Made by a program: the position numbers and the translations under genes. From NCBI RefSeq assembly GCF_014201145.1, contig NZ_JACHDP010000001.1, positions 1,984,001 through 2,048,000 on the forward strand: a DNA stretch of 64,000 nucleotides, written 5' to 3'. Below are positions 38,398 through 63,653 of this stretch, piece by piece. The notes below the pieces were generated by a model. That model saw only the letters and a program-made list of their open reading frames with translations, was not told the origin of the DNA and made no database searches. How positions within the stretch are numbered: position 1 is the stretch's first letter; each line of letters starts with the position of its first letter. The stretch comes from Micromonospora parathelypteridis (GTDB lineage Bacteria > Actinomycetota > Actinomycetes > Mycobacteriales > Micromonosporaceae).

Positions 38398-38413
38398 CTG
38401 AACGATCGCTAAG
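38398..38413. promoter_or_regulatory. Candidate acyl-CoA regulon operator, icmA
   Basis: CTGAACGATCGCTAAG; reverse complement CTTAGCGATCGTTCAG is the best copy of the shared motif. It lies 55 bp upstream of the icmA ATG. Confidence 0.75.
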
Positions 38414-38439
38414 TCAGGCTCTACCCGTGGGTAACCAGG

Positions 38440-38850
38440 TCAGGCCGTCGGAGCCGCAGGCCCACCCATCGCCACGTCGTCGACCCGGATGTTGACCTCG
38501 TCGACCCGCAGTCCGTACGCCTCGACCGCCTCGGTGACCCGGGCACGCACCTGGCTGGTGATCTCCGGCACCGGCTGACCGGCCTGGATCACCAGCACCA
38601 GGTTGACCACGGCGGCGTCCCCGGTCACGTGGGCCGAGCAGCCCCGCCGGGCGTCGCCCACCTGATCCAGCCCGACCCGGTCGAGAACCGAGTTGAAGAA
38701 CCGGGCCACGTCCCCGCCCAGCTCGGCCACGCCGGGAACCGCGCGGGCCGCCGCGACGGCAATCTTCTCGATCACCTCGTCGGAGACCTGCGTCGTCCCG
38801 CCGGCCGCCACCGATGCCGTGGTCAGCTCCTGCGTCGCCTCGTGGTCCAT
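38440..38850 (-). CDS. Asp23/Gls24 family envelope stress protein
   Basis: A 136-residue protein of the Asp23 (DUF322) family, small soluble or membrane-associated proteins linked to alkaline or cell-envelope stress. Typical are VSDEVIEKIAVAAARAVPGVAELGG near residue 22, VNLVLVIQAGQPVPEITSQVRARVTEAVEAYG and the closing VNIRVDDV. Start ATG 38850 has GGGGAG 5 nt upstream; a longer frame to 39267 runs antisense into meaB and is rejected. It sits alone between icmA and meaB, and a functional link to them is not evident. Confidence 0.93.
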   Translation of the reverse strand: MDHEATQELTTASVAAGGTTQVSDEVIEKIAVAAARAVPGVAELGGDVARFFNSVLDRVGLDQVGDARRGCSAHVTGDAAVVNLVLVIQAGQPVPEITSQVRARVTEAVEAYGLRVDEVNIRVDDVAMGGPAAPTA

Positions 38851-38956
38851 AGCCACTCCCCTGCTCCTCGCGCCGGCACACCGCCCGGACCCCACCGCCG
38901 TGGGGCGGTGCGAGCCTACAAGGACGAGGTGTCGTCGGGGTGTCCCCGGTGGACGG

Positions 38957-39961
38957 TCAACGGGCGAGCTGGGCCAGCAGTTCGTCCGCCGCCGTGTACG
39001 GGTCGAGGGCGCCCTCGGCGACCTTGGTGGCGAGCGTGGCCAACTCCGTACCGTCGCGCAGTGAGCCGATCCGGGCGCGCAGGGTGCCGAGCGCGATCGC
39101 CTCGATCTCGGCGGCGGCCCGCGCCTCCTGGCGGCGGCGCAGCTCGCCGTGCTCGACCAGCCAGCCCCGGTGCTTGTCGATCGCGGCGGCGATGTCGTCG
39201 ATGCCCTCGCCGCGCGCGGCGACCGAGCGGACCACCTGCGGTCGCCACTGCCCCGGGCCGCGCTCACCGAGGGCGATCATGCCCTGGATGTCGCGGACCG
39301 TGGCGTCGACGCCGTCCCGGTCAGCCTTGTTGATCACGAACACGTCGGCGATCTCCAGAATGCCGGCCTTGACCGCCTGGATCGCGTCACCCATGCCGGG
39401 GGCGAGCAACACGAGCGTGGTGTCGGCGAGCGAGGCGACCTCCACCTCGGCCTGCCCGACACCGACGGTCTCCACCAGCACCACGTCACAGCCGGCGCCT
39501 TCCAGCACCCGGACCGCCTGTGGCGTCGCCGCGGCCAACCCACCGAGGTGCCCGCGGCTGGACATGGACCGGATGTAGACGCCCGGATCGGTGGCGTGGT
39601 CCTGCATCCGCACCCGGTCGCCGAGGATCGCACCACCGGTGAACGGGCTGGACGGGTCGACCGCCAGCACGCCGACCCGGTGCCCCTGCGCCCGCAGCGC
39701 CCGGACCAGCTCGTTGGTGGTGGTCGACTTGCCCACCCCGGGCGAACCGGTCAGCCCCACGACCTGGGCCTGCCCGGCGTACGGCGCCAGCGCGGCGGCG
39801 ATCGCCGGCAGCAGCGCGTCGCCGTTCTCCACCAACGTGATCAGCCGGGCCACCGCGCGGGGGTCACCCGCGCGAGCCCGCTCGACCAGCAGCGGTACGT
39901 CCCGACTGCGGCGCACCGACGTGGTGCCCGCTGGCGGGACGTGCTCAGCCGCTTCGCTCAC
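38957..39961 (-). CDS. meaB: MeaB-type GTPase, acyl-CoA mutase chaperone
   Basis: A 334-residue G3E GTPase (ArgK/MeaB family) that protects and reloads B12-dependent mutases with intact cofactor. Walker A is [14 protein letters not shown] (about 83-96), the switch region includes [20 protein letters not shown], and the base-recognition motif is NKAD in [14 protein letters not shown] 39961 overlaps the thiolase stop as GTGA, so translation is coupled. Clients in this window are the isobutyryl-CoA and ethylmalonyl-CoA mutases; which is served is not determined by sequence. Confidence 0.95.
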
Positions 39962-41157
39962 TGCGCCTTCTCGACCTTGCCCGGAACGTGGATGATCAGC
40001 GCGTCGCCCTGGCCACCGCCACCGCAGAGCGCCGCCGCGCCGGTGCCGCCGCCGCGCCGCTTCAGCTCCAGGGCGAGGGTGAGTACGAGACGCGCCCCGG
40101 ACATGCCGATCGGGTGTCCGAGCGCGATCGCGCCACCGTTGACGTTGACCTTGTCCGGGCTGATGCCGAGGTCACGGGTGGACTGCACGCCGACCTGGGC
40201 GAACGCCTCGTTGATCTCAATGAGGTCCAGGTCCGCGACGCTCAGACCGCCCTTCTTCAGGGCGTGGTTGATCGCGTTGGACGGCTGCGAGTGCAGGGAG
40301 TTGTCCGGGCCCGCCACGTTGCCGTGCGCGCCGATCTCGGCCAGCCAGGTCAGCCCCAGCTCCTGGGCCTTGGACTTGCTCATCACCAGCACCGCGGCGG
40401 CGCCGTCGGAGATCGGCGACGAACTGCCGGCGGTGATGGTGCCGTCGGGGGTGAAGGCGGGGCGCAGCTTGGCGAGCGACTCGACGGTGGTGTCCGGGCG
40501 GATGCCCTCGTCCTCGCTGATCACCAGCGGGTCACCCTTGCGCTGCGGGATCACCACCGGGGTGATCTCGTCGGCGAAGTGGCCGTTCTTCTGCGCGGCG
40601 GCGGCCCGCTGGTGGCTGGCCGCGGCGAAGGTGTCCTGCTCCGTACGGGAGATACCGTGCTTGGTGCCGAGCCGCTCGGTCGACTCGCCCATCGAGCAGC
40701 AGTCCCAGGCGTCGCTGAGCCCGTCGTGCGCCATGTGGTCCTTGACCACCACGTCGCCGTACTTGTAGCCGGTGCGCTGGCCCATCAGCAGGTGCGGGGC
40801 GTTGGTCATCGACTCCATGCCGCCGGCCACCACGATGTCGAACTCGCCGGCGCGGATCAGCTGGTCGGCCAGGGCGATCGCGTCCAGACCGGAGAGGCAG
40901 ACCTTGTTGATGGTCAACGCCGGCACGGACATCGGCACGCCGGCCTCGACGGCCGCCTGCCGCGCCGGGATCTGACCGGTGCCGGCCTGCAGCACCTGCC
41001 CCATGATCACGTACTGGACCTGATCCGGGCTGACCCCGGCACGCTCCAGCGCCGCCTTGATGGCGATCCCGCCGAGCTTCGTGGCCGGAAGGTCCTTGAG
41101 GTTACCCAGCAGGCGCCCCATCGGGGTCCGCGCGCCGCTGACGATCACCGAAGCCAT
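39958..41157 (-). CDS. Acetyl-CoA C-acetyltransferase (thiolase)
   Basis: A 399-residue biosynthetic-type thiolase that condenses two acetyl-CoA to acetoacetyl-CoA, or does the reverse. The acyl-carrying Cys87 is in INKVCLSGL, the catalytic His in [10 protein letters not shown] and the second Cys in [15 protein letters not shown] is also present. Start ATG 41157 has GGAGG 6-7 nt upstream. It is coupled to meaB and divergent from the methylmalonyl-CoA epimerase gene. In the ethylmalonyl-CoA pathway it catalyses the first step, and its neighbours fit that role. Confidence 0.95.
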
Positions 41158-41189
41158 GCCTGCCTCCGAGGGGGTGCCGAGCTGTACGC

Positions 41190-41205
41190 CTTAACGAGTG
41201 TTCGG
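41190..41205. promoter_or_regulatory. Candidate acyl-CoA regulon operator, thiolase/epimerase
   Basis: CTTAACGAGTGTTCGG, the weakest of the six copies. It sits in the 61-bp gap between the divergent thiolase and epimerase starts and could control both. Confidence 0.6.
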
Positions 41206-41218
41206 TCAGACTAGCGCC

Positions 41219-41692
41219 ATGGCTGAGAACTCCCCCGCCGAGCCCGGTGCGGACTACGTCACAGACATCGGGCTTCGCAAGATTGACCACGTCGGAATCG
41301 CCGTGGCCGACCTGGACGCCGCGATCGACTTCTACCAGCGGACGTTCGGGATGCGCTGCGTACACGTCGAGACCAACGCCGAGCAGGGCGTCCGGGAAGC
41401 GATGCTGGCCGTCGGGCCGACCACCGAGGGCGGTTGCGTGCAACTGCTCGCACCGCTCACCCCGGAGTCGACGATCGCCAAGTTCCTGGACCGCAACGGG
41501 CCGGGCGTGCAGCAGGTCGCGTACACCGTGGTGGACATCGACGCGGCCTGCGCGGCGCTGCGCGCGCGGGGCATGCGCCTGCTCTACGACGCGCCGCGGC
41601 GCGGCACTGCGGACTCGCGCATCAACTTCGTGCACCCGAAGGACGCCGGCGGCGTCCTCGTCGAGCTCGTCGAGCCCGCCGCCGACCACTGA
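41219..41692 (+). CDS. mce: Methylmalonyl-CoA (ethylmalonyl-CoA) epimerase
   Basis: A 157-residue vicinal-oxygen-chelate protein that interconverts the (R) and (S) forms of methylmalonyl-CoA; homologues also act on ethylmalonyl-CoA. The metal ligands are in KIDHVGIAVADLD (His), GGCVQLLAPL (Gln) and GVLVELVEP (Glu). Start ATG 41219 has no ribosome site and lies 13 nt after the shared operator, so it is probably leaderless. GTG 41198 is in frame but would place the start inside the operator. It sits between thiolase and ccr, as expected for the ethylmalonyl-CoA pathway. Confidence 0.94.
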   Translation: MAENSPAEPGADYVTDIGLRKIDHVGIAVADLDAAIDFYQRTFGMRCVHVETNAEQGVREAMLAVGPTTEGGCVQLLAPLTPESTIAKFLDRNGPGVQQVAYTVVDIDAACAALRARGMRLLYDAPRRGTADSRINFVHPKDAGGVLVELVEPAADH

Positions 41693-41766
41693 CCTCCCGC
41701 CCGCCTCCCGCCCGCCGGCCACTGACCCGCCGCGCACGCCGAGAGGCCGCCCGTCCGCCGCGCGGT

Positions 41767-41840
41767 GATCGACTCCAGATCGCCGATGTGGCGGTGTCCC
41801 CAAGGGTGGATGCCGCCACCTCGGCGACGCGGAGTGGATC
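41767..41840. repeat. Dispersed palindromic element, copy 2
   Basis: Two 33-nt arms (41767-41799 and 41808-41840), beginning and ending in GATC, with about six mismatches between them. The core is ATCGCCGATGTGGCGG. An 8-nt loop separates the arms. Confidence 0.88.
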
Positions 41841-41963
41841 AACCGCAGCGGCCGCCTGCCCGCCGCCCAAAACCGGCCCGCAAGCACGTCAGTGCGCGGT
41901 TGGCGGGGTGGCCGGACACCTTCACGCATCGGCCGATGCAGTTTTTCACAGAGGACTTCCCGG

Positions 41964-41979
41964 TCTAGCTACCGTTCAG
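41964..41979. promoter_or_regulatory. Candidate acyl-CoA regulon operator, ccr
   Basis: TCTAGCTACCGTTCAG, followed by TAAC. It lies 29 bp before the GTG start of ccr and so overlaps the likely core promoter. Confidence 0.72.
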
Positions 41980-42008
41980 TAACGTCCGGCCCCACAGGAG
42001 CGCGACCG

Positions 42009-43463
42009 GTGCCGGATGTGTCGAATGCCGACATGGCGGTCGTGCCCACCGGCGCCGACGATGGCAGCACCCGGGCCCGTGCGGGTGCGGATGAACCGGA
42101 GGTCACCGTGCAGGACATCCTCGAAGCGATCATGGCGGCGGAGGAATCGAACGATCCGGACCGCGAGCTCGCCGGCGTTGCCGGGCTGCCCGTTCCGGAG
42201 AGCTACCGGGGCGTGGTGGTCCGCGCCGAGGAGGCCCGGATGTTCGACGGCATGGCCACCCGGGACAAGGACCCGCGCAAGGCGCTGCACGTGCAGGAGG
42301 TGCCGACGCCGGAGTTGGCGCCGGGCGAGGCGTTGATCGCGGTGATGGCCAGCGCGATCAACTACAACACGGTGTGGACCAGCATCTTCGAGCCGCTGCC
42401 CACCTTCAAGTTCCTCCAGCGCTACGGCCGGGTCTCCGAGCTGACCCGCCGCCACGATCTGCCGTACCACGTGGTCGGCTCGGACGCGGCGGGTGTGGTG
42501 CTGCGCACCGGCCCCGGGGTGACCCGCTGGGCGCCCGGCGACGAGGTGGTCGCGCACTGCCTCTCCGTCGAGTTGGAGGACGCGGCCGGGCACGACGACA
42601 CCATGCTCGACCCGCAGCAGCGGATCTGGGGCTTCGAGACCAACTTCGGCGGGCTGGCCGAGATGGCCGTGGTCAAGGCCAACCAACTGATGCCCAAGCC
42701 GCGGCATCTGAGCTGGGAGGAGGCGGCCAGCCCTGGGCTGGTCAACTCCACCGCGTACCGGCAGCTCGTCTCGCACCACGGGGCCAACATGAAGCAGGGC
42801 GACGTGGTCCTGATCTGGGGCGCCTCCGGCGGCCTCGGCGGGTACGCCACCCAGATGGCGCTCGGCGGCGGCGCCATCCCGATCTGCGTCGTCTCCTCGC
42901 CGGAGAAGGCCGAGCTGTGCCGCAAGATGGGCGCGGAGCTGGTCATCGACCGGGCGGCCGAAGGTTTCCGCTTCTGGAAGGACGAGGAGACCCAGGACCC
43001 GGACGAGTGGCGGCGCTTCGGCGAGCGGATCCGTGAACTGACCGGTGGTGAGGACCCGGACATCGTCTTCGAGCACCCGGGGCGGGAGACGTTCGGCGCA
43101 AGTGTCTACGTGGCCCGGCGCGGTGGGACCATCGTCACCTGCGCCTCCACGAGCGGTTTCCTGCACCAGTACGACAACCGCTACCTCTGGATGCACCTCA
43201 AGCGGATCATCGGCAGCCACTTCGCCAACTACCACGAGGCGTGGCAGGCCAACCGCCTGGTCTCGCTCGGCAAGGTGCACCCCACGGTGTCCCGCACCTA
43301 CTCGCTGGAGCAGACCGGTCAGGCCGCGTACGAGGTGCACCGCAACGCCCACCAGGGCAAGGTCGGGGTGCGCTGCCTCGCACCCACCGACGGGCTGGGC
43401 GTACGCGACGGGGAGTTGCGGGCCCAGCACGAGGACGCGATCAACCGCTTCCGGGGGCACTGA
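42009..43463 (+). CDS. ccr: Crotonyl-CoA carboxylase/reductase
   Basis: A 484-residue zinc-less MDR enzyme that reductively carboxylates crotonyl-CoA to ethylmalonyl-CoA with NADPH and CO2, the key step of the ethylmalonyl-CoA pathway and a source of extender units. Strong family blocks are TRDKDPRKALHV, NYNTVWTSIFEPLPTF, HDLPYHVVGSDAAGVVLRTG, IWGFETNFGGLAEMA and GASGGLGGYATQMA (nucleotide site), then FEHPGRETFG and IIGSHFANYHEAW. The usual protein starts near VTVQDILEAI. GTG 42009, with AGGAG 9 nt upstream, adds about 35 extra residues, so a later start is possible. The 3' end shows a short tandem duplication including the stop codon. Confidence 0.97.
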   Translation: MPDVSNADMAVVPTGADDGSTRARAGADEPEVTVQDILEAIMAAEESNDPDRELAGVAGLPVPESYRGVVVRAEEARMFDGMATRDKDPRKALHVQEVPTPELAPGEALIAVMASAINYNTVWTSIFEPLPTFKFLQRYGRVSELTRRHDLPYHVVGSDAAGVVLRTGPGVTRWAPGDEVVAHCLSVELEDAAGHDDTMLDPQQRIWGFETNFGGLAEMAVVKANQLMPKPRHLSWEEAASPGLVNSTAYRQLVSHHGANMKQGDVVLIWGASGGLGGYATQMALGGGAIPICVVSSPEKAELCRKMGAELVIDRAAEGFRFWKDEETQDPDEWRRFGERIRELTGGEDPDIVFEHPGRETFGASVYVARRGGTIVTCASTSGFLHQYDNRYLWMHLKRIIGSHFANYHEAWQANRLVSLGKVHPTVSRTYSLEQTGQAAYEVHRNAHQGKVGVRCLAPTDGLGVRDGELRAQHEDAINRFRGH

Positions 43464-43509
43464 CCGGCAGCGCCGGTACGGCGAGCACTGACCGGCAGCG
43501 CCGGTACGG
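43457..43509 (+). repeat. Tandem duplication spanning the ccr stop codon
   Basis: A 25-nt sequence starting GCACTGACCGGCAGCGCCGG occurs at 43457-43481 and again at 43485-43509 (period 28). The first copy contains the TGA of ccr. Confidence 0.85.
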
Positions 43510-43804
43510 GGGCACTGCCCCGGCAGTCGGCCGGACGGATGAACGCTCGATGGCCAATGCGGTGATCGGACATTGTTCTTCCGCTCCCATTAGCGGAAAA
43601 CCCACCCGGAACGAACAAAGGGCCTCGGGGTAACCCCGGGGCCCTTTTCCGCGTCACGCTGCGTGGCGTCCGACCCGCCCGGGACCTGCCAAGATCGCCG
43701 ATTGGTCCGGCCCTGCGGATCGCGGCAGTTGACCATGTAAAGAGGGCACGAAAGCTTCGCACCGCTCTTGCGAAGCACCCTGGGGCGTCTGCCAGTATGT
43801 CCCA
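43464..43804. other. Intergenic region between ccr and the first coiled-coil gene
   Basis: A 341-nt gap. It begins with the duplicated ccr end, holds the ccr terminator at 43617-43647, and its last 150 nt should carry the promoter of the 43805 gene. No gene or further clear operator is seen. Confidence 0.7.
43617..43647 (+). terminator. ccr terminator
   Basis: A 14-bp stem (43617-43630 with 43634-43647, one wobble) with loop TAA, then TTTT. It is a good intrinsic terminator, 154 nt after the stop codon. Confidence 0.85.
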
Positions 43805-45067
43805 ATGCCCCAGCAGCAGTCCTCCCCTCTCGCGTTCTTCGATAACGCGAACTCGCAGCCAGACTTCACCGTCGGCCTGCGCGGTTACAACACTCACCAG
43901 GTCGATGACTTCCTCGGCCGGATGACCGCCGCGCTGACCCAGTCCGAGCAGGCCCGTGCCGAGGCCGAGCAGCGGATGAACGACGCCCAGCGTCGACTCC
44001 GCCAAGCCGAACAGCGCATGAGTGCGCTGGAGCAGAAGCTCACCGACACGAACAAGCAGCTCGAAGAGAACAGCCGACCCACCCTCTCCGGGCTCGGCAC
44101 CCGCGTCGAGCAGATCCTCCGGCTCGCCGAGGAGCAGGCCAACGATCACCGCAACGAGGCGAAGCGCGAGTCGGAGGGCATCCTCTCCGCCGCCCGCCTC
44201 GAGGCCCGCGAGATCACCGACAAGGCACGTGCCGAGGCCGCGGCCATGAAGGCCAGCGCCGAGCGCGAGGCGGGCAACCTGCGCACCGCCGCCGAGCGCG
44301 AGGCCGCCGAGGTTCGGGTGCAGGCCCGCCGTGAGGCTGACACGCTGCGCGCGGACGCCGACCGCGAGACCAAGCAGCTGCGTACCGTCACCGCGCACGA
44401 GGTGGCCGAGCTGAAGTCGACCGTCGAGCGGGAGGTCGCCACCCTCCGGGCCACCGCCGAGCGGGAGATCACCCAGCAGCGGGCGAAGGCCGCCCGCGAG
44501 GCTGAGGAGAAGCGCGCCGAGGCGACCAAGCTGCTGACCGATGCGCGGGACAAGCGCGACAAGGACCTCCAGGCTCTGGAGCTCCAGTTGGCCGAGCGGC
44601 GGGAGAAGTCCGAGCGCGAGGAGTCCGAGCGGCACGCCGCCCAGGTCGCGCAGACCCAGAAGATGGTCAGCGAGGCCGAGCAGCGTGCCCGGGCCGCGCA
44701 GGAGCGGGCCAAGGAGATCGAGCAGCGCGCCGAGGCTCGGCGGGTCGAGTCGGAGCGCAACGCCGCCGAGACGGTGGACAAGGCCAAGGCGCACTCCGAG
44801 AAGACCCTCAACGAGGCCAAGGCCGAGTCGCAGCGTCTGCTCACCGAGGCCCGCACCGAGGCGGAGCTGACCACGCAGGCCGCCCGCCGCGAGGTCGAGG
44901 ACCTCACCCGGCAGAAGGACGCGGTCACCTCGCAGCTGGGCCAGATGCTCTCCGGGCTCGCCGGCATCGTTCCGGGGATGCCGGCCGCGGCCGCCCCGGC
45001 GGCCAAGCCGGAGGCCAAGAAGGCCGATGGCGGTCAGGAGCGGGTGCCCGCGGAGACCGCTGGCTGA
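43805..45067 (+). CDS. DivIVA-type coiled-coil polarity protein 1
   Basis: A 420-residue coiled-coil protein. Residues about 20-55 (FTVGLRGYNTHQVDDFLGRM) match the membrane-binding start of DivIVA/Wag31-like proteins. From 60 to 390 it is an almost unbroken heptad-rich helix with EAEQR, AEREA and AREAEEKRAEA patterns, followed by a short Ala/Pro tail. In filamentous actinomycetes such proteins (Scy and FilP type) gather at hyphal tips and organise growth. No good ribosome site precedes ATG 43805, which may be leaderless. A related gene follows 176 nt downstream after a terminator hairpin. Confidence 0.85.
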   Translation: MPQQQSSPLAFFDNANSQPDFTVGLRGYNTHQVDDFLGRMTAALTQSEQARAEAEQRMNDAQRRLRQAEQRMSALEQKLTDTNKQLEENSRPTLSGLGTRVEQILRLAEEQANDHRNEAKRESEGILSAARLEAREITDKARAEAAAMKASAEREAGNLRTAAEREAAEVRVQARREADTLRADADRETKQLRTVTAHEVAELKSTVEREVATLRATAEREITQQRAKAAREAEEKRAEATKLLTDARDKRDKDLQALELQLAERREKSEREESERHAAQVAQTQKMVSEAEQRARAAQERAKEIEQRAEARRVESERNAAETVDKAKAHSEKTLNEAKAESQRLLTEARTEAELTTQAARREVEDLTRQKDAVTSQLGQMLSGLAGIVPGMPAAAAPAAKPEAKKADGGQERVPAETAG

Positions 45068-45092
45068 CGCGAGGCGTCAGATCGGGGCATCG

Positions 45093-45136
45093 ACGGCGCG
45101 AGGTGACACCGGGTGACCGGTGCAACCTCGCGCCGT
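45093..45136 (+). terminator. Terminator between the two coiled-coil genes
   Basis: A perfect 12-bp outer stem (45093-45104 with 45125-45136) enclosing a second small hairpin (CACCGG/CCGGTG). It begins 26 nt after the first gene's stop. Confidence 0.8.
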
Positions 45137-47432: not shown

Positions 47433-47488
47433 AACAGGTTTCGGGGGATGTGCCGGGGGCCGACCCCAAGCAGACCCGGGAGGTTCTG

Positions 47489-51586: not shown

Positions 51587-53377
51587 TCAGCGGTGCGAGT
51601 GGTCGCGGAAGCCGCGGCGGGTCTTGCGGCCCAGGTAGCCGGCGGTGACCAGGTGCTCCAGCAGCGGCGCGGGCGCGAAGCCCGGCTCGCGCAACTCCAG
51701 GTACAGCTCGCGCTGAATCGCCAGCGCGACGTCCAGCCCGACGACGTCGAGCAACTCGAAGGGGCCCATCGGGTAGCCGCAGCCCAGCTTCATCGCGTGG
51801 TCGATGTCGTCGGCCGTGGAGTAGCTGGCCTCCAGCATCTTGACCGCGTCGTTGAGGTACGGGAAGAGCAGCGCGTTCACGATGAACCCGGACCGGTCGC
51901 CGCAGACCACGGCGGTCTTGCCGAGCGCGGCGCAGACCGCACGGGCGGTGGCGGTGGCCTCCGGGGAGGTGCGGATGGTGCGGACCACCTCGACCAGCGG
52001 CATGACCGGCGCCGGGTTGAAGAAGTGCAGCCCCACCACGTCGGCCGGCCGGTGGGTGGCCATCGCCACGTCGATCACCGGCAGCGAGGAGGTCGTGGTG
52101 GCCAGCACCACGCCCGGCTTGCAGATCTCGTCGAGGCTCGCGAAGAGCGCCTTCTTCACGCTCAATTCCTCGACCACGGCCTCGACCACGAGGTCGACGT
52201 CGGCGAGGTGGTCGAGCGTGGCCGACCAGCTGATCCGGCCCAGCGCCGCGTCCCGGTCGGCCTCGGTGAGCTTGCCGCGCACCACGCCCTTGTTGAGCGA
52301 GGTCTTGACCGCCTCGCAGACCGTCGCGGACTTCTCCATGCCCCGGGTCACCGAGACGACCTCGTAGCCGGCCTTCGCGAAGACCTCGATGATCCCGGTG
52401 GCCATCGTCCCGGAGCCCACCACGCCGACCTTGGCGATGGCGCGCGCGCCGTCGCCGAGCCCGGCCTCCGTCGTCAGCGGCGTCGCCTCGTCCGGTACGA
52501 CCACCGGCGAGCCGGGCCGCTCGTAGGTGTAGAAGCCCCGTCCGGACTTCCGACCGAGCAGACCCGCCGTCACCATCTGCTTGAGCAGCGGCACCGGGGC
52601 GTGCCTGCGGTCCCGCCCGCCGCGCCGGTACATGGTGTCCAGAATCTCGTACGCGGTGTCCAGACCGATCAGATCCATCAGTGCCAGTGGGCCCATCGGC
52701 AGGCCGCAACCGAGCTTCATCGCGGCGTCGATGTCCTCCCGGGTCGCGTAGTGCGACTCGAACATGCCGACCGCGTGGTTGAGGTAGCCGAAGAGCAACG
52801 CGTTGGCGATGAAGCCGGCCCGGTCGTTGATGGTGACGTCGACCTTGCCGAGCCGGGCGCAGAGCGCCTCGACGTCGGCGACCACCTCGGGTGCGGTGAC
52901 GACCGTGCGGACCACCTCGACCAGCTTCATCACGGGAGCCGGGTTGAAGAAGTGGATGCCGATCACCTGGTTGGGCCGGGTGGTGGCCACCGAGATCTCG
53001 GTGACGCTCAGCGACGAGGTGTTGGTGGCGAGGATGGTCTCCGGCCGGCAGATGCGGTCCAACTCGGCGAAGATCCGCTGTTTGAGGTCCAGGTGCTCGG
53101 GCACCGCCTCGATGACCAGATCGACGGAGTGCAGCGCGTCCAGCCCGGCCGCGAAGTGCACCCGCTCGTGCAGGGCGTCGCGGTCGGCCGCGGCGAGTTT
53201 GCCCTTCGCGACCGCCCGGTCGGTGGAGCGGGTGAGGGTGGCCCGACCGCGCTCCAGCGCCGGCTCGGAGATCTCGACCGCCACCACGTCGATGCCGTTG
53301 CGGGCGAAGACCTCGACGATGCCGGCACCCATGGTGCCCAGCCCCACCACACCCACGGTGCTGAACTCGCGCGCCAC
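51587..53377 (-). CDS. 3-hydroxyacyl-CoA dehydrogenase, tandem duplicate
   Basis: A 596-residue protein made of two full 3-hydroxybutyryl-CoA dehydrogenase modules of about 290 residues each, where most members have one. Module 1 has GLGTMG (12-17), module 2 GSGTMA near 315. Both keep HFFNPAPVM with the catalytic His, the NTSSL or TTSSL motif, and the C-terminal MKLGCG(L/Y)PMGP. The enzyme oxidises 3-hydroxyacyl-CoA with NAD(P) or reduces acetoacetyl-CoA. GTG 53377 has GGGAGG 6 nt upstream and lies 32 bp from a copy of the acyl-CoA operator. It is distinct from the single-module hbd at 62.7 kb. Confidence 0.93.
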   Translation of the reverse strand: MAREFSTVGVVGLGTMGAGIVEVFARNGIDVVAVEISEPALERGRATLTRSTDRAVAKGKLAAADRDALHERVHFAAGLDALHSVDLVIEAVPEHLDLKQRIFAELDRICRPETILATNTSSLSVTEISVATTRPNQVIGIHFFNPAPVMKLVEVVRTVVTAPEVVADVEALCARLGKVDVTINDRAGFIANALLFGYLNHAVGMFESHYATREDIDAAMKLGCGLPMGPLALMDLIGLDTAYEILDTMYRRGGRDRRHAPVPLLKQMVTAGLLGRKSGRGFYTYERPGSPVVVPDEATPLTTEAGLGDGARAIAKVGVVGSGTMATGIIEVFAKAGYEVVSVTRGMEKSATVCEAVKTSLNKGVVRGKLTEADRDAALGRISWSATLDHLADVDLVVEAVVEELSVKKALFASLDEICKPGVVLATTTSSLPVIDVAMATHRPADVVGLHFFNPAPVMPLVEVVRTIRTSPEATATARAVCAALGKTAVVCGDRSGFIVNALLFPYLNDAVKMLEASYSTADDIDHAMKLGCGYPMGPFELLDVVGLDVALAIQRELYLELREPGFAPAPLLEHLVTAGYLGRKTRRGFRDHSHR

Positions 53378-53408: not shown

Positions 53409-53424
53409 CTGAACGGCCGATTAG
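53409..53424. promoter_or_regulatory. Candidate acyl-CoA regulon operator, tandem dehydrogenase
   Basis: CTGAACGGCCGATTAG; reverse complement CTAATCGGCCGTTCAG. It lies 32 bp upstream of the GTG start and is centred on a perfect GGCC. Confidence 0.72.
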
Positions 53425-56943: not shown

Positions 56944-56955
56944 CAAGCGGGCCGA

Positions 56956-57615
56956 TCAGAAGAGCGTCAGCTCGTCCTTCTCGATGCCCCGCAGCTTGTC
57001 GTAGTCCACGACCACGCACCGGATGCCCCGGTCGGTGGCGAGCACCCGCGCCTGCGGCTTGATCTCCTGAGCGGCGAAGACCCCGGCAACGGGGCTGAGT
57101 AGCGGGTCGCGGTTCATCAACTCGAGATAGCGGGTCAACTGCTCCACCCCGTCGATGTCGCCACGCCGCTTGACCTCGATGGCGACCGCGGCGGAGTTGG
57201 CGTCCCGGCAGAGCAGGTCGACCGGGCCGATCGCCGTCATGTACTCGCGGCGGACCAGCGTGAACCCCTCACCCAACACACCAGGGTTGGCGGCCAACAA
57301 CTCCTGCAGGTGCGCCTCCACCCCGTCCTTGCGCAGGCCCGGATCCACACCCAACTCGTACGAGGTGTCCTGGAAGATCTCCTCCAGGGTGATCCGTAGC
57401 TCCTCGCCAGCCTTGTTGACCACCCGCCACACACCGGGGGCCTCCTCCAGCCGACACGGCGGGCTCATCCAGTTCAACGGCTTGTACGCCCGGTCGTCGG
57501 CGTGAATGGACACCGACCCGTCCGCCTTCACCATCAGCAACCGGGTGGCCAGCGGCAGGTGAGCCGAGAGCCGTCCGACATAGTCCACCGAGCACTTCGC
57601 AATGACCAACCGCAC
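56956..57615 (-). CDS. nucS: Mismatch-specific endonuclease NucS
   Basis: A 219-residue nuclease that cleaves mismatched DNA in the non-canonical repair pathway of Actinobacteria, which lack MutS/MutL. The start [16 protein letters not shown], the PD-(D/E)xK-type active site ([10 protein letters not shown] and VAIEVKRRG) and the last residues ELTLF, a beta-clamp-binding tail, are all characteristic. GTG 57615 fixes the start; a longer frame to 57660 is excluded by family length. Single-copy core gene. Confidence 0.97.
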
Positions 57616-57686
57616 CCGACGAGGGTAGCCGAGCACCCGCCGGTCGCCACCGAGCGGCACTGGCGCGTCGATGCGATGCTGAGACC

Positions 57687-58304
57687 GTGTTCGAAGTCCT
57701 CACCGGCACCGGTCTCGCCGCCTCGGCGGGCCTGAACGCCTACATACCCCTGCTCATCCTCGGTCTACTCAGCCGCTACTCCGACCTGATCGACCTTCCG
57801 AGCGGCTGGAACTGGCTCGGCAACGGCTGGGTCATCGTCATCCTGGCCGTACTGCTCGCCGTGGAGGTGGTGGCGGACAAGGTGCCCGTGGTCGACCACT
57901 TCAACGACGTGGTGCAGACCGTGGTCCGGCCCACCGCCGGCGGTCTGGCCTTCGGCGCCGGGTCCTCGTCGGAGACGGTGACGGTCAGTGACCCGGGGAG
58001 CTTCTTCTCGTCGCACCAGTGGGTGCCGGTCGTCACCGGCGTTCTGCTGGCACTGGGTGTGCACCTGCTCAAGTCGGCGGCACGCCCCGTCATCAACGCG
58101 ACCACCGCCGGGTTCGGCGCCCCGGTCGCCAGCACCGCCGAGGACGCCACCAGCGTGGTGGTCTCCGTGGTCGCGATCATCCTGCCGGTGCTGGTTCTCG
58201 TCTTCCTGCTCGGTCTGGTGGTCTTCATCTTCTGGTTCGTTCGGCGACGCTCCGAACGTCGCCGGGAACGCGAAGCGGCACGCGCCGCGGGCTTCCGCGT
58301 CTGA
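57687..58304 (+). CDS. DUF4126 family membrane protein
   Basis: A 205-residue membrane protein of the DUF4126 family with about five helices: [61 protein letters not shown] and the C-terminal [24 protein letters not shown]. It ends with a basic cytoplasmic tail ([11 protein letters not shown]). [12 protein letters not shown] is conserved in the family. Function unknown. Start GTG 57687 is divergent from nucS across 71 bp, with no clear ribosome site. Confidence 0.85.
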
Positions 58305-58354
58305 GCCCTGGTGCCCGGCGCGCGGGGTCCGACGCTTCGACCGCCCGCGAGCAC

Positions 58355-58428
58355 GATCGACTTCATATCGCCGATGTGGGGGCATCCCGGCGAACCGATG
58401 CCCCCACATCGCCGACGCTGTGTCGATC
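58355..58428. repeat. Dispersed palindromic element, copy 3
   Basis: Arms 58355-58387 and 58396-58428, bounded by GATC, with a perfectly complementary 19-nt core containing TCGCCGATGTGGGGGCATC. It lies in the 227-nt gap between the DUF4126 and DUF1540 genes. Confidence 0.9.
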
Positions 58429-58531
58429 AGCGGCCGCAAACGCCAGTGCAAGCGCGCGGGGCGGGCGCATTCCGGGTTCCCGGGGGGCGATAAAAGCCTA
58501 GGATCGGGTCAAAAGCCTAGAGGAGGTTGGC

Positions 58532-58828
58532 ATGACTGCAGCGTTGGAGATGCCCCGAGTCCAGGAATGCGTGGTCTCCGCGTGCGCGTACAACCAGTCG
58601 GGTGACTGCCACGCCTTCGCGATCACGATCGGCAGCATGGATCACGCCCACTGCCACACCTTCGTCGAATCGCCCATCCGGGGTGGGGTGGACGGGCTGG
58701 TCGCCCAGGTGGGCGCCTGCCAGCGCTCCGACTGTCGGCACAACGAGCAGTTGGAGTGCCACGCGTCGTCCATCAAGGTCGGCCCGGACAACGATCTGGC
58801 CGACTGCATGACCTACGCCGGCCGCTGA
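58532..58828 (+). CDS. Double DUF1540 cysteine-rich protein
   Basis: A 98-residue protein with two DUF1540-type motifs, each with four cysteines. The first has Cys13, 18, 26 and 41; the second has Cys63, 68, 76 and 92 (spacing C-x4-C-x7-C-x14/15-C). These probably bind a metal, zinc or iron-sulphur. Start ATG 58532 has GAGGAGG 5 nt upstream. Function unknown; such proteins are common in actinomycetes. It is convergent with the ethylmalonyl-CoA mutase gene. Confidence 0.9.
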   Translation: MTAALEMPRVQECVVSACAYNQSGDCHAFAITIGSMDHAHCHTFVESPIRGGVDGLVAQVGACQRSDCRHNEQLECHASSIKVGPDNDLADCMTYAGR

Positions 58829-58844
58829 CCCACCGGAAGCGGGT

Positions 58845-60851
58845 TCAGGGCAGGTCGTTGGCGCTCCGGATGACCGTCACCAGGTCGTCGATGATGCCGG
58901 TGAGGGCGAAGTCCTTCGGGGTGAAGACCCGGGCCACCCCGGCCGCCCTGAGCGTGTCCGCGTCACCGGCGGGGATGATGCCTCCCACGACCACCGGCAG
59001 GTCCGCCCGGCCGGCGGCCCGCAGCCCGTCGAGCACGGCGGGCACGGCGGCCAGGTGCGAACCGGAGAGCACCGACAGCCCGACCAGGTCGACGTCCTCC
59101 TCCACGGCGGCGGCGACGATCTGCCCAGCGGTCAGCCGGATGCCCTGGTAGACGACCTCGAATCCGGCGTCGCGGGCGCGTACCGCGATCTGCTCCGCGC
59201 CGTTGGAGTGCCCGTCCAGGCCAGGTTTGCCGACCAACAGCCGCAGCCGGCCGCTGCCCAGCTCGCGGGCGGTGGCGGCGACCCGCTCGCGGACGGCGGC
59301 GAGGCCCGGGTCGCCGCCGCTGCCGGTGGCGCCGGCCAGGCCGGTCGGTGCCCGGTACTCGCCGAAGACCTGGCGCAGCGCGCCGGCCCACTCGCCGGTG
59401 GTCACCCCGGCCCGGACGCACTCCAGGGTGGCCGCCATCAGGTTGGTGGTGGTCGCGGCGTCCGCGCGCAGCCGGGCCAGTGCCGCGTCGACGGCGGCCG
59501 CGTCCCGGTCGGCACGCCACCGGTGTACGCCGTCAGCGGCGGCGGCCTCGACCGCGGGATCGACCTGCTCGACAGCCTTCGCACCGGTGGCGGTCAGCGG
59601 AGAGGGTTCGGTCTCGGGGTACCGGTTGACGCCGACCACCACGTCGGCGCCGGACTCCATCCGACGGCGGCGCTCGGCCAGCGAGCCGACGAGGGCACTC
59701 TTGAGATACCCGCTCTCCACGGCGGCGACCACACCGCCCAGCTCCAGCACCTTGTCCAGCTCGACCCGGGCACCGGTGACGATCTCGTCGACCAGCGCGG
59801 TCATCACGTGCGAGCCGTCGAAGAGGTCCGGATATTCGAGCAGATCCGACTCGTACGCGAGGACCTGCTGCATCCGCAGCGACCACTGCTGATCCCAGGG
59901 GCGAGGCAGGCCGAGCGCCTCGTTCCAGGCCGGCAGTTGCACCGCGCGGGCCCGGGCGTCGCGGGACATCGTCACGCCGAGCATCTCCAGCACGATGCGC
60001 TGGATGTTGTTCTCCGGCTGCGCCTCGGTGAGGCCGAGCGAGTTGACCTGCACGCCGTAGCGGAACCGTCGTTGCTTGGCCTCGGTGACCGCGTACCGGT
60101 CCCGGGTGATCTCGTCCCAGAGCACGCCGAACGCGCGCATCTTGGCGATCTCCTCGACGAAGCGCACACCCGCGTTGACGAAGAACGAGATCCGCTGCAC
60201 CACGTCACCCATCCGCTCGGCCGGCACCTGGCCGGAGTCGCGGACCGCGTCGAGCACAGCGACGGCGGTGGCCAGCGCGAAGCCGACCTCCTGCACGGGC
60301 GTGGCACCGGCCTCCTGGAGGTGGTACGAGCAGATGTTGACCGGGTTCCACCGGGGCATCTCGCGCAGCGTGTACGCCACGACGTCCGCGGTGAGCCGCA
60401 GCGACGCCGCCGGCGGGAAGATGTACGTCCCCCGGGACAGGTACTCCTTGACGATGTCGTTCTGGGTGGTGCCGGCGCAGCGGGCCAGCTCGGCGCCCTG
60501 CTCCAGCCCGACGGTGCCGTAGAGGGCCAGCAGCCACATCGCCGGCGCGTTGATGGTCATCGAGGTGTTCATCTCGGCGAGCGGGAGGCCGTCGAAGAGC
60601 GCCCGCATGTCGCCGAGGTGCGCCACCGGCACGCCGACTCGGCCGACCTCACCGGTGGCCAGCTCGTGGTCCGGGTCGTACCCGGTCTGGGTGGGCAGGT
60701 CGAAGGCGACCGAGAGGCCGGTCTGCCCCTTTGCCAGGTTGCGCCGGAAGAGGGCGTTGGTCGCGGTGGCCGACGAGTGGCCGGCGTAGGTGCGCATCAC
60801 CCACGGGCGGTCCCGCTCGGGCAGACGCCCCGAAGATGCCGTCTCATCCAT
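58845..60851 (-). CDS. ecm: Ethylmalonyl-CoA mutase (MeaA type)
   Basis: A 668-residue B12-dependent mutase with both domains: an N-terminal TIM barrel and a C-terminal cobalamin-binding domain (DxHxxG in LDGHSNGAEQIAVRARDAGFEV, near residue 546). It converts ethylmalonyl-CoA to methylsuccinyl-CoA, following Ccr and the epimerase. RPWVMRTYAGHSSAT and KGQTGLSVAFDLPTQTGYDPDHELATGEVG match MeaA/Ecm rather than methylmalonyl-CoA mutase. It also has KEYLSRGTYIFPP, with Arg where IcmA has Gln. Start ATG 60851 lacks a ribosome site and follows a -10-like TAACTT by 10 nt, so it is probably leaderless; the shared operator covers that -10. Confidence 0.92.
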   Translation of the reverse strand: MDETASSGRLPERDRPWVMRTYAGHSSATATNALFRRNLAKGQTGLSVAFDLPTQTGYDPDHELATGEVGRVGVPVAHLGDMRALFDGLPLAEMNTSMTINAPAMWLLALYGTVGLEQGAELARCAGTTQNDIVKEYLSRGTYIFPPAASLRLTADVVAYTLREMPRWNPVNICSYHLQEAGATPVQEVGFALATAVAVLDAVRDSGQVPAERMGDVVQRISFFVNAGVRFVEEIAKMRAFGVLWDEITRDRYAVTEAKQRRFRYGVQVNSLGLTEAQPENNIQRIVLEMLGVTMSRDARARAVQLPAWNEALGLPRPWDQQWSLRMQQVLAYESDLLEYPDLFDGSHVMTALVDEIVTGARVELDKVLELGGVVAAVESGYLKSALVGSLAERRRRMESGADVVVGVNRYPETEPSPLTATGAKAVEQVDPAVEAAAADGVHRWRADRDAAAVDAALARLRADAATTTNLMAATLECVRAGVTTGEWAGALRQVFGEYRAPTGLAGATGSGGDPGLAAVRERVAATARELGSGRLRLLVGKPGLDGHSNGAEQIAVRARDAGFEVVYQGIRLTAGQIVAAAVEEDVDLVGLSVLSGSHLAAVPAVLDGLRAAGRADLPVVVGGIIPAGDADTLRAAGVARVFTPKDFALTGIIDDLVTVIRSANDLP

Positions 60852-60860
60852 GGCTGGAGC

Positions 60861-60876
60861 TTAAGTTACCGTTCAG
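60861..60876. promoter_or_regulatory. Candidate acyl-CoA regulon operator, ecm
   Basis: TTAAGTTACCGTTCAG, 9 bp upstream of the ecm start, overlapping the likely -10. The flanks extend the dyad (GTTAC-N6-GTAAA). Confidence 0.72.
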
Positions 60877-61002
60877 TAAAACGGGCTGTGGAAAACCACA
60901 CAGGTCCATGTCGGGGACGTCTGGGCGCGAAGCGCTCGCAGTGTTGCGCACCGCCACACCCCGGGCACCAGCTCGGCCGGGTCAGGACGCACACTGGACG
61001 GC

Positions 61003-61854
61003 ATGGATGACGAGCTGGCCATCTCCGTCCGAGGGCTGCGCAAGGCGTACGGCGACAACGTCGCGGTGGCGGGCGTGGATCTCGACGTCCACCGCGGCGA
61101 GGTGTTCGCGCTGCTCGGCCCGAACGGCGCCGGCAAGACCACCACGGTGGAGATCCTGGAGGGTTACCGACGCCGGGACGCCGGCGAGGTCACCGTGCTC
61201 GGCACGGACCCGGCCCATCCTGCCGCCGACTGGCGCTCCCGCGTCGGCATCGTGCTCCAGGGCACCGGCGAGTTCGACGAGTTGACCGTGGCCGAGGTGC
61301 TCCGACACTTCTCCGGCTTCTACCCCGACGCGGACGACCCGGACAAGGTGATCGAGCGGGTCGGGCTGGCCGGCAAGGCGAAGGCCCGTACGCACACCCT
61401 CTCCGGCGGGCAGAAGCGCCGCCTGGACGTGGCACTGGGCATCATCGGGCGCCCCGAGCTGCTCTTCCTCGACGAGCCGACCACCGGCTTCGACCCGGAG
61501 GCCCGCCGCGAGTTCTGGGAGCTGATCCGCGACCTCGCCGCCGCCGGCACCACCATCGTGCTGACCACCCACTACCTGGACGAGGCCGAGGCACTCGCCG
61601 ACCGGGTCGGTGTGATCGCCGGAGGCCGGCTGGTCGAGGTGGCCGCCCCGAATCGGCTGGGCAATCGGCAGGAGGCGCTCGCGACGGTCTCCTGGCGTAC
61701 CCCGGACGGGACGCTGGAGAGTGCGCAGAGCGCGACGCCGACGGCCCTGGTGGCCGACCTGGCCGCGCGCTACGGCGGCGAGGTCCCCGGGCTCACCGTG
61801 ACCCGGCCGACCCTGGAGGACGTCTACCTCACCATGATCGGACACGCACGATGA
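61003..61854 (+). CDS. ABC transporter ATP-binding protein (DrrA-like)
   Basis: A 283-residue ABC ATPase of the DrrA/CcmA exporter type. Walker A is GPNGAGKTTTVE, the Q-loop GIVLQGTGEFDE, the signature LSGGQKRRLDV, Walker B LLFLDEPTTGFD, and the switch His LTTHYLDEA. The C-terminal 60 residues form the DrrA-type tail (RPTLEDVYLTMIGHA). It powers the permease encoded next, overlapping as ATGA (61851-61854). Substrate unknown, perhaps a drug or lipid. The ribosome site before ATG 61003 is weak. Confidence 0.95.
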   Translation: MDDELAISVRGLRKAYGDNVAVAGVDLDVHRGEVFALLGPNGAGKTTTVEILEGYRRRDAGEVTVLGTDPAHPAADWRSRVGIVLQGTGEFDELTVAEVLRHFSGFYPDADDPDKVIERVGLAGKAKARTHTLSGGQKRRLDVALGIIGRPELLFLDEPTTGFDPEARREFWELIRDLAAAGTTIVLTTHYLDEAEALADRVGVIAGGRLVEVAAPNRLGNRQEALATVSWRTPDGTLESAQSATPTALVADLAARYGGEVPGLTVTRPTLEDVYLTMIGHAR

Positions 61855-62696
61855 CGACCACGACGAAGCCCGCGACGCCGGTCGCCGCGAGCCGCGGCCG
61901 CCGGCCGGCAGCAGGCACGCTCGCCCTGCGCCAGGGCCGGCTGGAGATCACCCAGTTCCTGCGCAGCCGGGAGTCCGTGGTCTTCACGATGGGCTTCCCC
62001 ATCATCATGATCCTGATCTTCGCGTCGATCTTCGGCGGCACGATCGGTGGCGGGGTCAAGTTCACCCAGTACTTCATCACCGGCATGATCGCGACCGGTC
62101 TGATGACGGTGAGCTTCCAGAACCTCGGCATCTGGATCCCGATCGAACGGGACCGGGGCGTGCTCAAACGCTACCGGGGCACGCCGATGCCGAAGTGGGT
62201 CTGGTTCGCCGGCAAGGTGATCATGGTAGTGGCCATCGGCATCGCCGAGACCGCGCTGCTGCTGGCCGTCGCGGTGCCGCTGTTCGACCTCCACCTGCCG
62301 GGTACGGCCGGGAAGTGGTTCACCTTCGGCTGGGTCGCCGTGCTCGGGGTGACCGCCTGCACGCTCTGCGGCATCGCGATCTCGTCGCTGGCCCGCACCG
62401 CCCGCAGCGGCTCGGCGGTGGTCACCCCGGTCGCCCTGGTGCTCCAGTTCATCTCCGGGGTGTTCTTCGTCTTCACCGACCTGCCCACCTGGATGCAGCA
62501 GGTGGCGGCGCTGTTCCCGCTCAAGTGGATGTGCCAAGGGCTGCGGTCGGTCTTCCTGCCCGAGAGCTTCGGCGCTCAGGAGCCGGGCGGCTCGTTCGAG
62601 CTGGGCCGGGTCGCGCTGGTGCTGGGCCTGTGGTGCGTGGTCGGCCTGGTGCTCTGCCTGACCACCTTCCGATGGACCACCAAGCGCGACGGCTGA
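61851..62696 (+). CDS. ABC-2 type transporter permease
   Basis: A 281-residue membrane partner of the preceding ATPase with six hydrophobic helices of the ABC-2 type: VVFTMGFPIIMILIFASIF, YFITGMIATGLMTVSFQ, VIMVVAIGIAETALLLAVAV, WVAVLGVTACTLCGIAISSLA, VTPVALVLQFISGVFFVF and VALVLGLWCVVGLVLCLTTF. A 32-residue cytoplasmic N-terminus precedes. It is translationally coupled to the ATPase gene. Convergent with hbd across a strong hairpin. Confidence 0.94.
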   Translation: MTTTTKPATPVAASRGRRPAAGTLALRQGRLEITQFLRSRESVVFTMGFPIIMILIFASIFGGTIGGGVKFTQYFITGMIATGLMTVSFQNLGIWIPIERDRGVLKRYRGTPMPKWVWFAGKVIMVVAIGIAETALLLAVAVPLFDLHLPGTAGKWFTFGWVAVLGVTACTLCGIAISSLARTARSGSAVVTPVALVLQFISGVFFVFTDLPTWMQQVAALFPLKWMCQGLRSVFLPESFGAQEPGGSFELGRVALVLGLWCVVGLVLCLTTFRWTTKRDG

Positions 62697-62701
62697 GCGG
62701 T

Positions 62702-62729
62702 CGACCGGGGCGGACACCCGCCCCGGTCG
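62702..62729. terminator. Bidirectional terminator between ABC permease and hbd
   Basis: A perfect 12-bp stem (62702-62713 with 62718-62729), loop ACAC, between convergent stops at 62696 and 62737. Confidence 0.88.
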
Positions 62730-62736
62730 CCGTGGC

Positions 62737-63585
62737 TCAGTACGTGTAGAAGCCCTTGCCGGTCTTGCGGCCCAGGTCGCCGGCGGTGACCATCCGCTGG
62801 AGCAGCTCCGGCGGGAAGAACTTCTCGTCGGCCGTGTCGGTGTAGATGTTCTTCGAGGCGTGCAGCAGCACGTCCACGCCGGTCAGGTCGGTGGTGGCCA
62901 GCGGCCCCATCGCGTGCCCGAAGCCCAGCCGGCAGGCCGTGTCCAGGTCCTCCGCGGACACCACGCCGGACTCCACCAGCTTGACCGCCTCCATCACCAG
63001 GGCGGAGATCAGCCGGGTCGTGACGAAGCCGGCGATGTCCCGGTTGACCACCACCACCGTCTTGCCGATCTCCTCGGCGAAGGCCCGCGCGGTGTCCAGC
63101 GTGGCGTCGCTGGTCTTGTAACCACGAACCAGCTCGCAGAGCTGCATCATCGGCACCGGGGAGAAGAAGTGGGTGCCGACGACCGCCTCGGGCCGCTCGG
63201 TCACCGCGGCGATCTGGGTGACCGGGATGGCCGAGGTGTTGGTGGCGAGCACCGCGTCCGACTTGCAGATCTTGTCCAGCGCGCGGAACACCTCGTGCTT
63301 GATCTCCAGCCGCTCGAAGACCGCCTCGACCACGATGTCCGCGTCCGCCGCCGCCTCCAGCTCGGTGGTCGGGGTGATCCGGGCGAGGGTCGCCTCGACC
63401 TCGGACGCCTCGATCCGGCCCTTCTCGGCGAACTTCTCCAGTGACTTCCGGATGCCGCCGAGCCCTCGGGTGGTGGCCGCGTCGTCCAGGTCGCGCAGCG
63501 TCACCTGCCAGCCGGCCTGCGCTGCCACCTGGGCGATGCCGGAACCCATCAACCCAGCCCCGACGACCGCGAGTCGACCCGCCAT
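62737..63585 (-). CDS. hbd: 3-hydroxybutyryl-CoA dehydrogenase
   Basis: A 282-residue single-module enzyme of the Hbd/FadB2 type, reducing acetoacetyl-CoA to 3-hydroxybutyryl-CoA or the reverse, as in the ethylmalonyl-CoA pathway. NAD(P) motif is GAGLMGSG, the catalytic His is in HFFSPVPMMQL, NTSAIPVT is present, and the C-terminal domain has CRLGFGHAMGPLATTDLTG. Start ATG 63585 has GAGGGAGAAG upstream, better than the frame start at 63618. A copy of the shared operator lies 53 bp upstream. The window also holds a two-module relative at 51.6 kb. Confidence 0.95.
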   Translation of the reverse strand: MAGRLAVVGAGLMGSGIAQVAAQAGWQVTLRDLDDAATTRGLGGIRKSLEKFAEKGRIEASEVEATLARITPTTELEAAADADIVVEAVFERLEIKHEVFRALDKICKSDAVLATNTSAIPVTQIAAVTERPEAVVGTHFFSPVPMMQLCELVRGYKTSDATLDTARAFAEEIGKTVVVVNRDIAGFVTTRLISALVMEAVKLVESGVVSAEDLDTACRLGFGHAMGPLATTDLTGVDVLLHASKNIYTDTADEKFFPPELLQRMVTAGDLGRKTGKGFYTY

Positions 63586-63637
63586 CTGCTTCTCCCTCGC
63601 TGCGATTGAGTGCCTCACTGCACCCTAGTCGGCGAGC

Positions 63638-63653
63638 CTGAACGATGACTAAG
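63638..63653. promoter_or_regulatory. Candidate acyl-CoA regulon operator, hbd
   Basis: CTGAACGATGACTAAG; reverse complement CTTAGTCATCGTTCAG. It is 53 bp upstream of the hbd ATG. Confidence 0.75.

Follow-up and report, generated by a model that had tools for sequence, protein, structure and literature searches.

TetR-type repressors of acyl-CoA carboxylase genes have been described in several actinobacteria. The TetR repressor AccR of Streptomyces avermitilis has the operator GTTAA-N6-TTAAC, which lies before accD1A1-hmgL-fadE4 and other genes (PMC10933834). BkaR, a mycobacterial TetR repressor (MSMEG_4718 / Rv2506), has the core site GTTA(N)T(N4)A(N)TAAC at accD1, and a BkaR site also precedes fadA4, an acetyl-CoA acetyltransferase gene (MSMEG_4920) that is derepressed in the bkaR mutant (PMC3920632). 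PccD and AcrT of Saccharopolyspora are TetR regulators of propionyl-CoA/acyl-CoA carboxylase genes (PMC10933834, PMC11596240, PMC8546615), and PccD of S. erythraea has been termed a BkaR homolog (PMC11596240). Here, we compare these systems with a box found at six promoters of acyl-CoA genes in a 64-kb stretch of the Micromonospora parathelypteridis genome (the window, 64,000 nucleotides in full), which lies inside the single contig of this 7.01-Mb genome. Judged from the sequence, the six boxes are very probably operators of the ortholog of AccR/BkaR (SACE_7040 family) carried by the bacterial family of Micromonospora (hereafter the family), with a regulon that would include the ethylmalonyl-CoA pathway.

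At the repressor locus of the family, the box reads CTKAACG-WW-CGTTMAG, a palindrome of 16 bp. As with AccR, a TetR repressor and a 16-nt palindrome with an N6 spacer are combined with an accD1A1-hmgL-type operon and short-chain acyl-CoA genes; unlike AccR, whose half-sites are GTTAA/TTAAC, the family has CTKAA/TTMAG. The AccR targets listed in the review PMC10933834 (accD1A1-hmgL-fadE4, echA8, echA9 and fadE2) contain no ethylmalonyl-CoA pathway or mutase genes. The likeness to BkaR lies in a TetR repressor near accD1, a 16-bp core palindrome and a thiolase gene among the targets, and the published BkaR targets (accD1, a thiolase) overlap in kind with the box-bearing genes. The thl gene of the window, like fadA4, encodes an acetyl-CoA acetyltransferase, a likeness by annotation. 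BkaR has about 10 direct targets, mostly in one operon, and is autoregulated (PMC3920632), whereas the Micromonospora repressor gene has no box. The resemblance to PccD and AcrT extends to regulator type and carboxylase targets and not to the recognition sequence, which is reported as T/ATGACGG/CTGT/CTGT/A for PccD and nttGaTc for AcrT.

An earlier note on this DNA had placed the box at six promoters and written it as the symmetric consensus CTKAR-N6-YTMAG. A sequence check of the window found all six sites where they had been placed, ~9 to 52 bp 5' of the start codons chosen in the analysis. The sites and their genes are given below, with the scores from a matrix of 18 operators that stand at the repressor locus in other genomes of the family (the 18-site matrix).

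36655..38373, minus strand: icmA-type mutase large subunit (MM_CoA_mutase; TIGR00641 over cut-off)
38398-38413, minus strand: box CTTAGCGATCGTTCAG, 5' of icmA, score 22.9
38957-39961: meaB, next after thl
39958..41157, minus strand: thl, acetyl-CoA C-acetyltransferase (thiolase)
41190-41205, plus strand: box CTTAACGAGTGTTCGG, between the divergent thl and mce, score 16.2
41219..41692, plus strand: mce, methylmalonyl-CoA epimerase (TIGR03081 over cut-off)
41964-41979, plus strand: box TCTAGCTACCGTTCAG, 5' of ccr, score 10.9
42009..43463, plus strand: ccr, crotonyl-CoA carboxylase/reductase (TIGR01751 over cut-off)
51587..53377, minus strand: hcdh2, tandem 3-hydroxyacyl-CoA dehydrogenase (two 3HCDH_N and two 3HCDH matches)
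53409-53424, minus strand: box CTAATCGGCCGTTCAG, 5' of hcdh2, score 16.0
58845..60851, minus strand: ecm-type mutase with a B12-binding domain
60861-60876, plus strand: box TTAAGTTACCGTTCAG, between ecm and a divergent ABC transporter gene, score 7.4
62737..63585, minus strand: hbd, single 3-hydroxybutyryl-CoA dehydrogenase
63638-63653, minus strand: box CTTAGTCATCGTTCAG, 5' of hbd, score 11.5

The name icmA was given by resemblance and from the separate small subunit, icmB, located elsewhere in the genome; ecm was named ethylmalonyl-CoA mutase because it closely matches the mutase found in ccr-ecm clusters, and the window ccr is 97-98% identical to ccr genes of named Micromonospora. The sites proved to be conserved, as described below; the consensus fared less well. 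It fits only two of the six sites without mismatch, ccr and ecm fit it poorly, and the bare pattern is no more frequent than expected by chance: at two mismatches or fewer, it gave 55 matches in the window against 84.9 expected, and an exact CTNAR-N6-YTNAG occurred at 37 places genome-wide against 61 for the reversed control.

The matrices do set the sites apart from chance. Five window matches reached at least 10 with the 18-site matrix, all among the six sites, and none did so in the reversed window; the ecm site ranked eighth. A stricter matrix, built without a prior matrix from the family accD1 promoters alone, placed the icmA, thl/mce, hbd and hcdh2 sites at ranks 1-4, ccr seventh and ecm beyond the top 12. 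Across the whole genome, CTKAACGATCGTTMAG with up to three mismatches was found at 33 places, compared with 6 in the reversed control.

The boxes also stand out of diverged flanks in the loci of relatives, where they take the forms CTTAGCGATCGTTCAG at icmA, CTTAACGATTGTTCGG at thl/mce, CCTTAGCGGCCGTTCA at hcdh2 and CTAAGTTACCGTTCAG at ecm, the last of these occurring as GTTACCGATCGTTAAC in three other genera. With the 18-site matrix, promoters of relatives scored at least 14 at icmA in 22/22, at thl in 25/27 and at mce in 24/27 (the box being that of thl), and at ecm in 6/23, ccr in 5/22 and hcdh2 in 5/15, the other 10 of the 15 hcdh2 promoters scoring 8-12. These counts omit matches that start after residue 30, promoters off the locus edge and, for icmA, ecm, hcdh2, ccr and thl, matches below 60% identity. 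The hbd promoters were examined in regions adjoining ecm (11 of 24 ecm-bearing genomes), where 10/11 scored at least 10 and 8/11 at least 14; a previous count from ccr loci was discarded, as most matches there must be other dehydrogenases. None of 164 control promoters reached 14 (meaB 27, divIVA-like 28, p729 25, AI-2E 12, hypothetical 24, sigma 7, thioredoxin 19, arginase 19 and gdh 3, each taken as the best match with no identity filter). The ABC transporter gene divergent from ecm, with 5/25 promoters of at least 14, shares the ecm promoter and so is no control. That the boxes resemble one another by chance, with no common regulator, agrees with the bare consensus, which is not set apart from chance; the conservation across genera, the use of matrices from another locus, the empty controls and the genome-wide excess make it extremely improbable. 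The evidence at icmA, thl/mce, hbd and icmB already contradicts it, so that it could apply only to the exact register at ccr and ecm.

A candidate repressor was located outside the window. A TetR gene of the source genome (G000:C1:3239495-3240091) lies directly before accA1-hmgL-accD1 and an acyl-CoA dehydrogenase gene, and the best family match of its product is NCBIfam NF050111 (SACE_7040 family transcriptional regulator), at 224 bits against a curated cut-off of 250. The protein is 45-46% identical to its best matches in two genomes (loci L232 and L234), whose own promoters carry BkaR sites letter-identical to those published for M. tuberculosis / M. smegmatis. Among solved structures, 4g12/6yj2 come closest (E 5.6e-40); we take them to be Rv2506. 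By these sequence comparisons, the repressor is very probably an ortholog of BkaR; by operator type and locus, it is probably also orthologous to AccR.

The same box marks the locus of this repressor throughout much of the family. The repressor is present in 57/61 family genomes and stands beside accD1/accA1/hmgL in the family regions. Among 40 such regions, boxes of at least 16 were found at all 29 accD1 promoters in range, at 15/40 repressor and 11/36 accA1 promoters, and at 5/35 hmgL and 1/21 fadE promoters. In 403 kb of these regions, 63 of the 64 matches of at least 16 fell in promoters of these five locus genes, and the reversed control gave 3 matches; the scan used a matrix of 12 sites of the source genome, six of them from the window, and omitted genes too near the locus edge. 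A plain count of 10-mers in the family accD1 promoters, independent of any matrix, put AACGATCGTT first (26/29). A single TetR-type repressor, as the earlier note had proposed, is the best reading, with the same box standing at a TetR repressor locus.

It could also be that a different TetR repressor of the source genome reads the box, given that the genome holds 76 TetR_N matches and that the Micromonospora AccR ortholog has no box at its own promoter. Two genes would be candidates, one at 2105462, preceded twice by the box-like CTGACCGATCGGTCAG, and one at 6824219, with a weak GTGAATTAAAGTTCAG ~140 bp 5' of its helix-turn-helix (HTH). We consider this improbable, as the family box sits at the AccR locus itself and the family boxes occupy the places where outgroup orthologs hold an operator of the published type. 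The CTGACCGATCGGTCAG copies are tandem perfect palindromes (L131:2366-2400; G000:C1:2105365-2105399) and probably the TetR gene's own operators. A TetR gene at 2185588 was rejected, its match CTTACCGTGCGGCTAG being too low-scoring to show in the matrix scan.

Genome-wide, the 33 places outline the predicted regulon. Thirteen lie just 5' of metabolic genes, namely icmA, thl/mce, hbd, icmB, accD1, an accA-type biotin-carboxylase gene, a pccB-type carboxyltransferase gene (named from resemblance), ilvE, an acyl-CoA dehydrogenase gene, mcl, mcd, mch and the gene of pyruvate phosphate dikinase (PPDK). Of the other 20, two are at the tandem operator of a TetR gene, four precede miscellaneous open reading frames (ORFs; by eye zinc-dehydrogenase-like, M24-peptidase-like, kinase-like and one unidentified near an atpD-like gene), and 14 are within predicted ORFs or unclear. 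The hcdh2, ccr and ecm sites exceed three mismatches to CTKAACGATCGTTMAG. Mcl (~80%) and Mch (~79%) are close in identity to the products of Streptomyces ccr-ecm clusters, as is Mcd (72%), whose gene carries the box CTGACCAAGCGTTCAG 80 bp 5'; the mcl box is weak (score 10.7). Taken together, the box is found before ccr, ecm, mce, thl, hbd, mcl, mch (mesaconyl-CoA hydratase) and mcd (methylsuccinyl-CoA dehydrogenase), being weak or ambiguous at the first two of these and at mcl.

Boxes had been predicted at icmB and the methylsuccinyl-CoA dehydrogenase gene, and both were found there, together with those at mcl and the mesaconyl-CoA hydratase gene. In the family, the icmB promoters scored at least 14 in 22/30 and at least 10 in 24/30 (30 of 58 icmB-bearing genomes examined), and the mcd promoters in 10/25 and 14/25, the 25 loci including one that is truncated and two with mcd inside a cluster. 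The genome-wide scan and the remaining pathway genes, which the earlier note had named as the places where its proposal could fail, gave an outcome that favours a shared regulator. Its picture of a regulon specific to the ethylmalonyl-CoA pathway did not hold, with boxes also at accD1, the pccB-/accA-type genes, ilvE and PPDK. Since the repressor is present in 57/61 family genomes and close ecm (at least 72% identity) in 24/61 and mcd in 25/61, its presence in the family is not tied to this one pathway. The pathway itself is patchy, ecm and mcd occurring in nearly the same genomes and both missing from one of the three genomes of the window's genus.

Some further observations concern single sites. 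The PPDK box (L118:2341-2356; G000:C1:1744340; score 20.9) lies 19 bp 5' of the ORF and would tie the regulon to gluconeogenesis. The M24-peptidase-like ORF is preceded by CTTAAAGAGTGTTAAC (12.4) and CCAAACGACCGTTAAG (21.8) at L342:2286-2377 (G000:C1:6720361). Malic enzyme was rejected as a target because the box follows its gene, outside the 3' end, and precedes the zinc-dehydrogenase-like ORF by 10 bp; also rejected was a crotonase-like ORF near 3851544, where the box is past the 3' end, within the next ORF. No crotonase gene with a box in its promoter turned up, and no systematic crotonase search was made.

At ccr, the box overlaps a second palindrome, GCTACCGTTCAGTAAC (41968-41983). Both ccr and ecm hold this second palindrome as GNTACNGNNCNGTAAC, shifted four bases from the first register. 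Allowing one mismatch, the second palindrome is kept in 28/29 family ccr loci against 24/29 for the first register, and the order is reversed at ecm (7/23 against 17/23). Because the first register is better kept at ecm and the second palindrome at ccr, ecm is a likely target of the repressor by sequence, and ccr a probable one, made ambiguous by the overlap. Two regulators could explain this pattern: the AccR ortholog would act at icmA, thl/mce, icmB, hbd, hcdh2 and mcd, and a second repressor, recognising an operator like TTACYSNNSRGTAA, would mainly govern ccr (and a site 5' of the icmA box), the AccR match at ccr being partly a by-product of the overlap. The near-complete retention of GNTACNGNNCNGTAAC at ccr points this way, as do the 12/51 outgroup ccr promoters within one mismatch of GTTA-N8-TAAC and the GTTACCGGCCGGTAC that relatives carry 5' of the icmA box. 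In Hamadaea (L028), however, ccr has separate elements, GCTACTGGGCAGTAAC and then CTCAACGGTCGTTCAG (21.9), and in Catellatospora (L026) it has CTGAATCATCGTTAAG (18.5); ccr can therefore carry both elements. As GTTAC-N6-GTAAC also fits the published AccR/BkaR form and no second repressor was identified, a search on the operator of FdmR yielding nothing of use, we regard two regulators as possible, though less likely than not. Elements of the second type, roughly TTACYSNNSRGTAA, accompany icmA (GTTACCCACGGGTAG, ~38425-38445, 5' of the box), mcd (GTTACCCACGAGTAG in L370, just after the box) and ccr (GCTACCGTTCAGTAAC). CcrR of Methylobacterium extorquens (Alphaproteobacteria) is likewise a TetR-type regulator of a ccr promoter and differs in being an activator.

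The operator of the family differs from that of its outgroup, a set of the 28 best-scoring repressor loci among 118 genomes. In this set, the repressor's own promoter carries an exact GTTA-N8-TAAC at 26/28 loci, with two copies in 18, and an accD1-type gene is divergently adjacent at 25/28. In the family, this motif was absent from all 105 locus promoters (0/40 repressor, 0/29 accD1 and 0/36 accA1). The box shares with the AccR/BkaR operators the 16-bp palindrome with an N6 spacer at accD1 and lacks their GTTA/TAAC half-sites, and for this absence we call it a variant of their operator. The earlier note knew of no published regulator for it; the class is in print as AccR and BkaR. Outside the family, exact GTTA-N8-TAAC was rare or absent at the pathway genes (ccr 2/51, ecm 0/33, thl 0/17, hcdh2 0/39), and AccR control of the pathway is therefore not claimed there. 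The repressors differ as well: aligned residue 55 is His in 41/41 family repressors and Arg (21) or Lys (7) in the 28 outgroup ones, and residue 39 is fixed as Met in the family against Ile/Val/Leu. As TetR structures suggest, residue 55 presumably belongs to the helix that reads the DNA and contacts bases.

As a mechanism, we infer that transcription is most likely repressed by a repressor dimer bound to CTKAACG-WW-CGTTMAG, on top of the core promoter or adjoining it. The boxes lie ~9 to 80 bp 5' of the chosen starts and, judged by eye, overlap or adjoin -10/-35-like sequences, which is where a repressor that blocks RNA polymerase would be expected; activation is also compatible with the sequence. 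The ligands, guessed from the targets, would probably be short-chain acyl-CoAs that arise from branched-chain amino acids, propionate and acetate/butyrate and release the repressor. The predicted regulon comprises thl, hbd, hcdh2, ecm, mce, mcd, mcl, mch and probably ccr of the ethylmalonyl-CoA pathway, and also icmA and icmB (isobutyryl-CoA mutase), the carboxylase genes, ilvE, the acyl-CoA dehydrogenase gene and PPDK. The operator would have drifted in the family from GTTAN-N6-NTAAC, alongside the change from Arg/Lys to His in the recognition helix.

Several observations weigh against this reading. The ecm site scores low in the window, ccr is confounded by the overlapping palindrome, and 15/25 mcd and 8/30 icmB loci fall below 14. 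Full independence cannot be claimed for the 18-site matrix, whose sites came from a scan with the 12-site matrix that contains the window sites. Boxes at PPDK, ilvE, the pccB-/accA-type genes, mcl, mch and the acyl-CoA dehydrogenase gene are known from one genome only. The earlier note had proposed looking for a tetR gene carrying the box; 15/40 family repressor promoters do, and none does in the three Micromonospora genomes examined, so that autoregulation is unsupported there. Four deep family loci (L300-L303) also showed no box within the parts available. The family repressors form one clade (support 100/99) on a long stem, and the residue 55 difference is therefore one event and not many, which makes its link with the operator a correlation only.

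The protein family, the locus and the operator type are already known. No actinobacterial regulator covering the ethylmalonyl-CoA pathway was found in the literature searched, an absence that is not firm, as the original AccR description was outside it; within the same limit, the shifted operator of the family, the accompanying helix residue and the tie of this regulator to the ethylmalonyl-CoA pathway and to isobutyryl-CoA mutase may be new. A wider proposal, which we hold tentatively and at a little under even, is that AccR changed its DNA code at the base of the family (outer half-site G to C, inner AACG nearly fixed, Arg/Lys to His) and came to govern a whole route with genes scattered along the chromosome. 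This route would start at branched-chain amino acids, acetate and propionate, run through the ethylmalonyl-CoA pathway and end at phosphoenolpyruvate, and its control would extend to the supply of ethylmalonyl-/methylmalonyl-CoA for polyketides. Micromonospora and its relatives produce medical compounds, and the analysis names one gene that may control their polyketide extender-unit supply. It further offers a clean example of joint change in a TetR repressor and its operators, with one fixed helix difference, one shifted operator and many genomes on either side.

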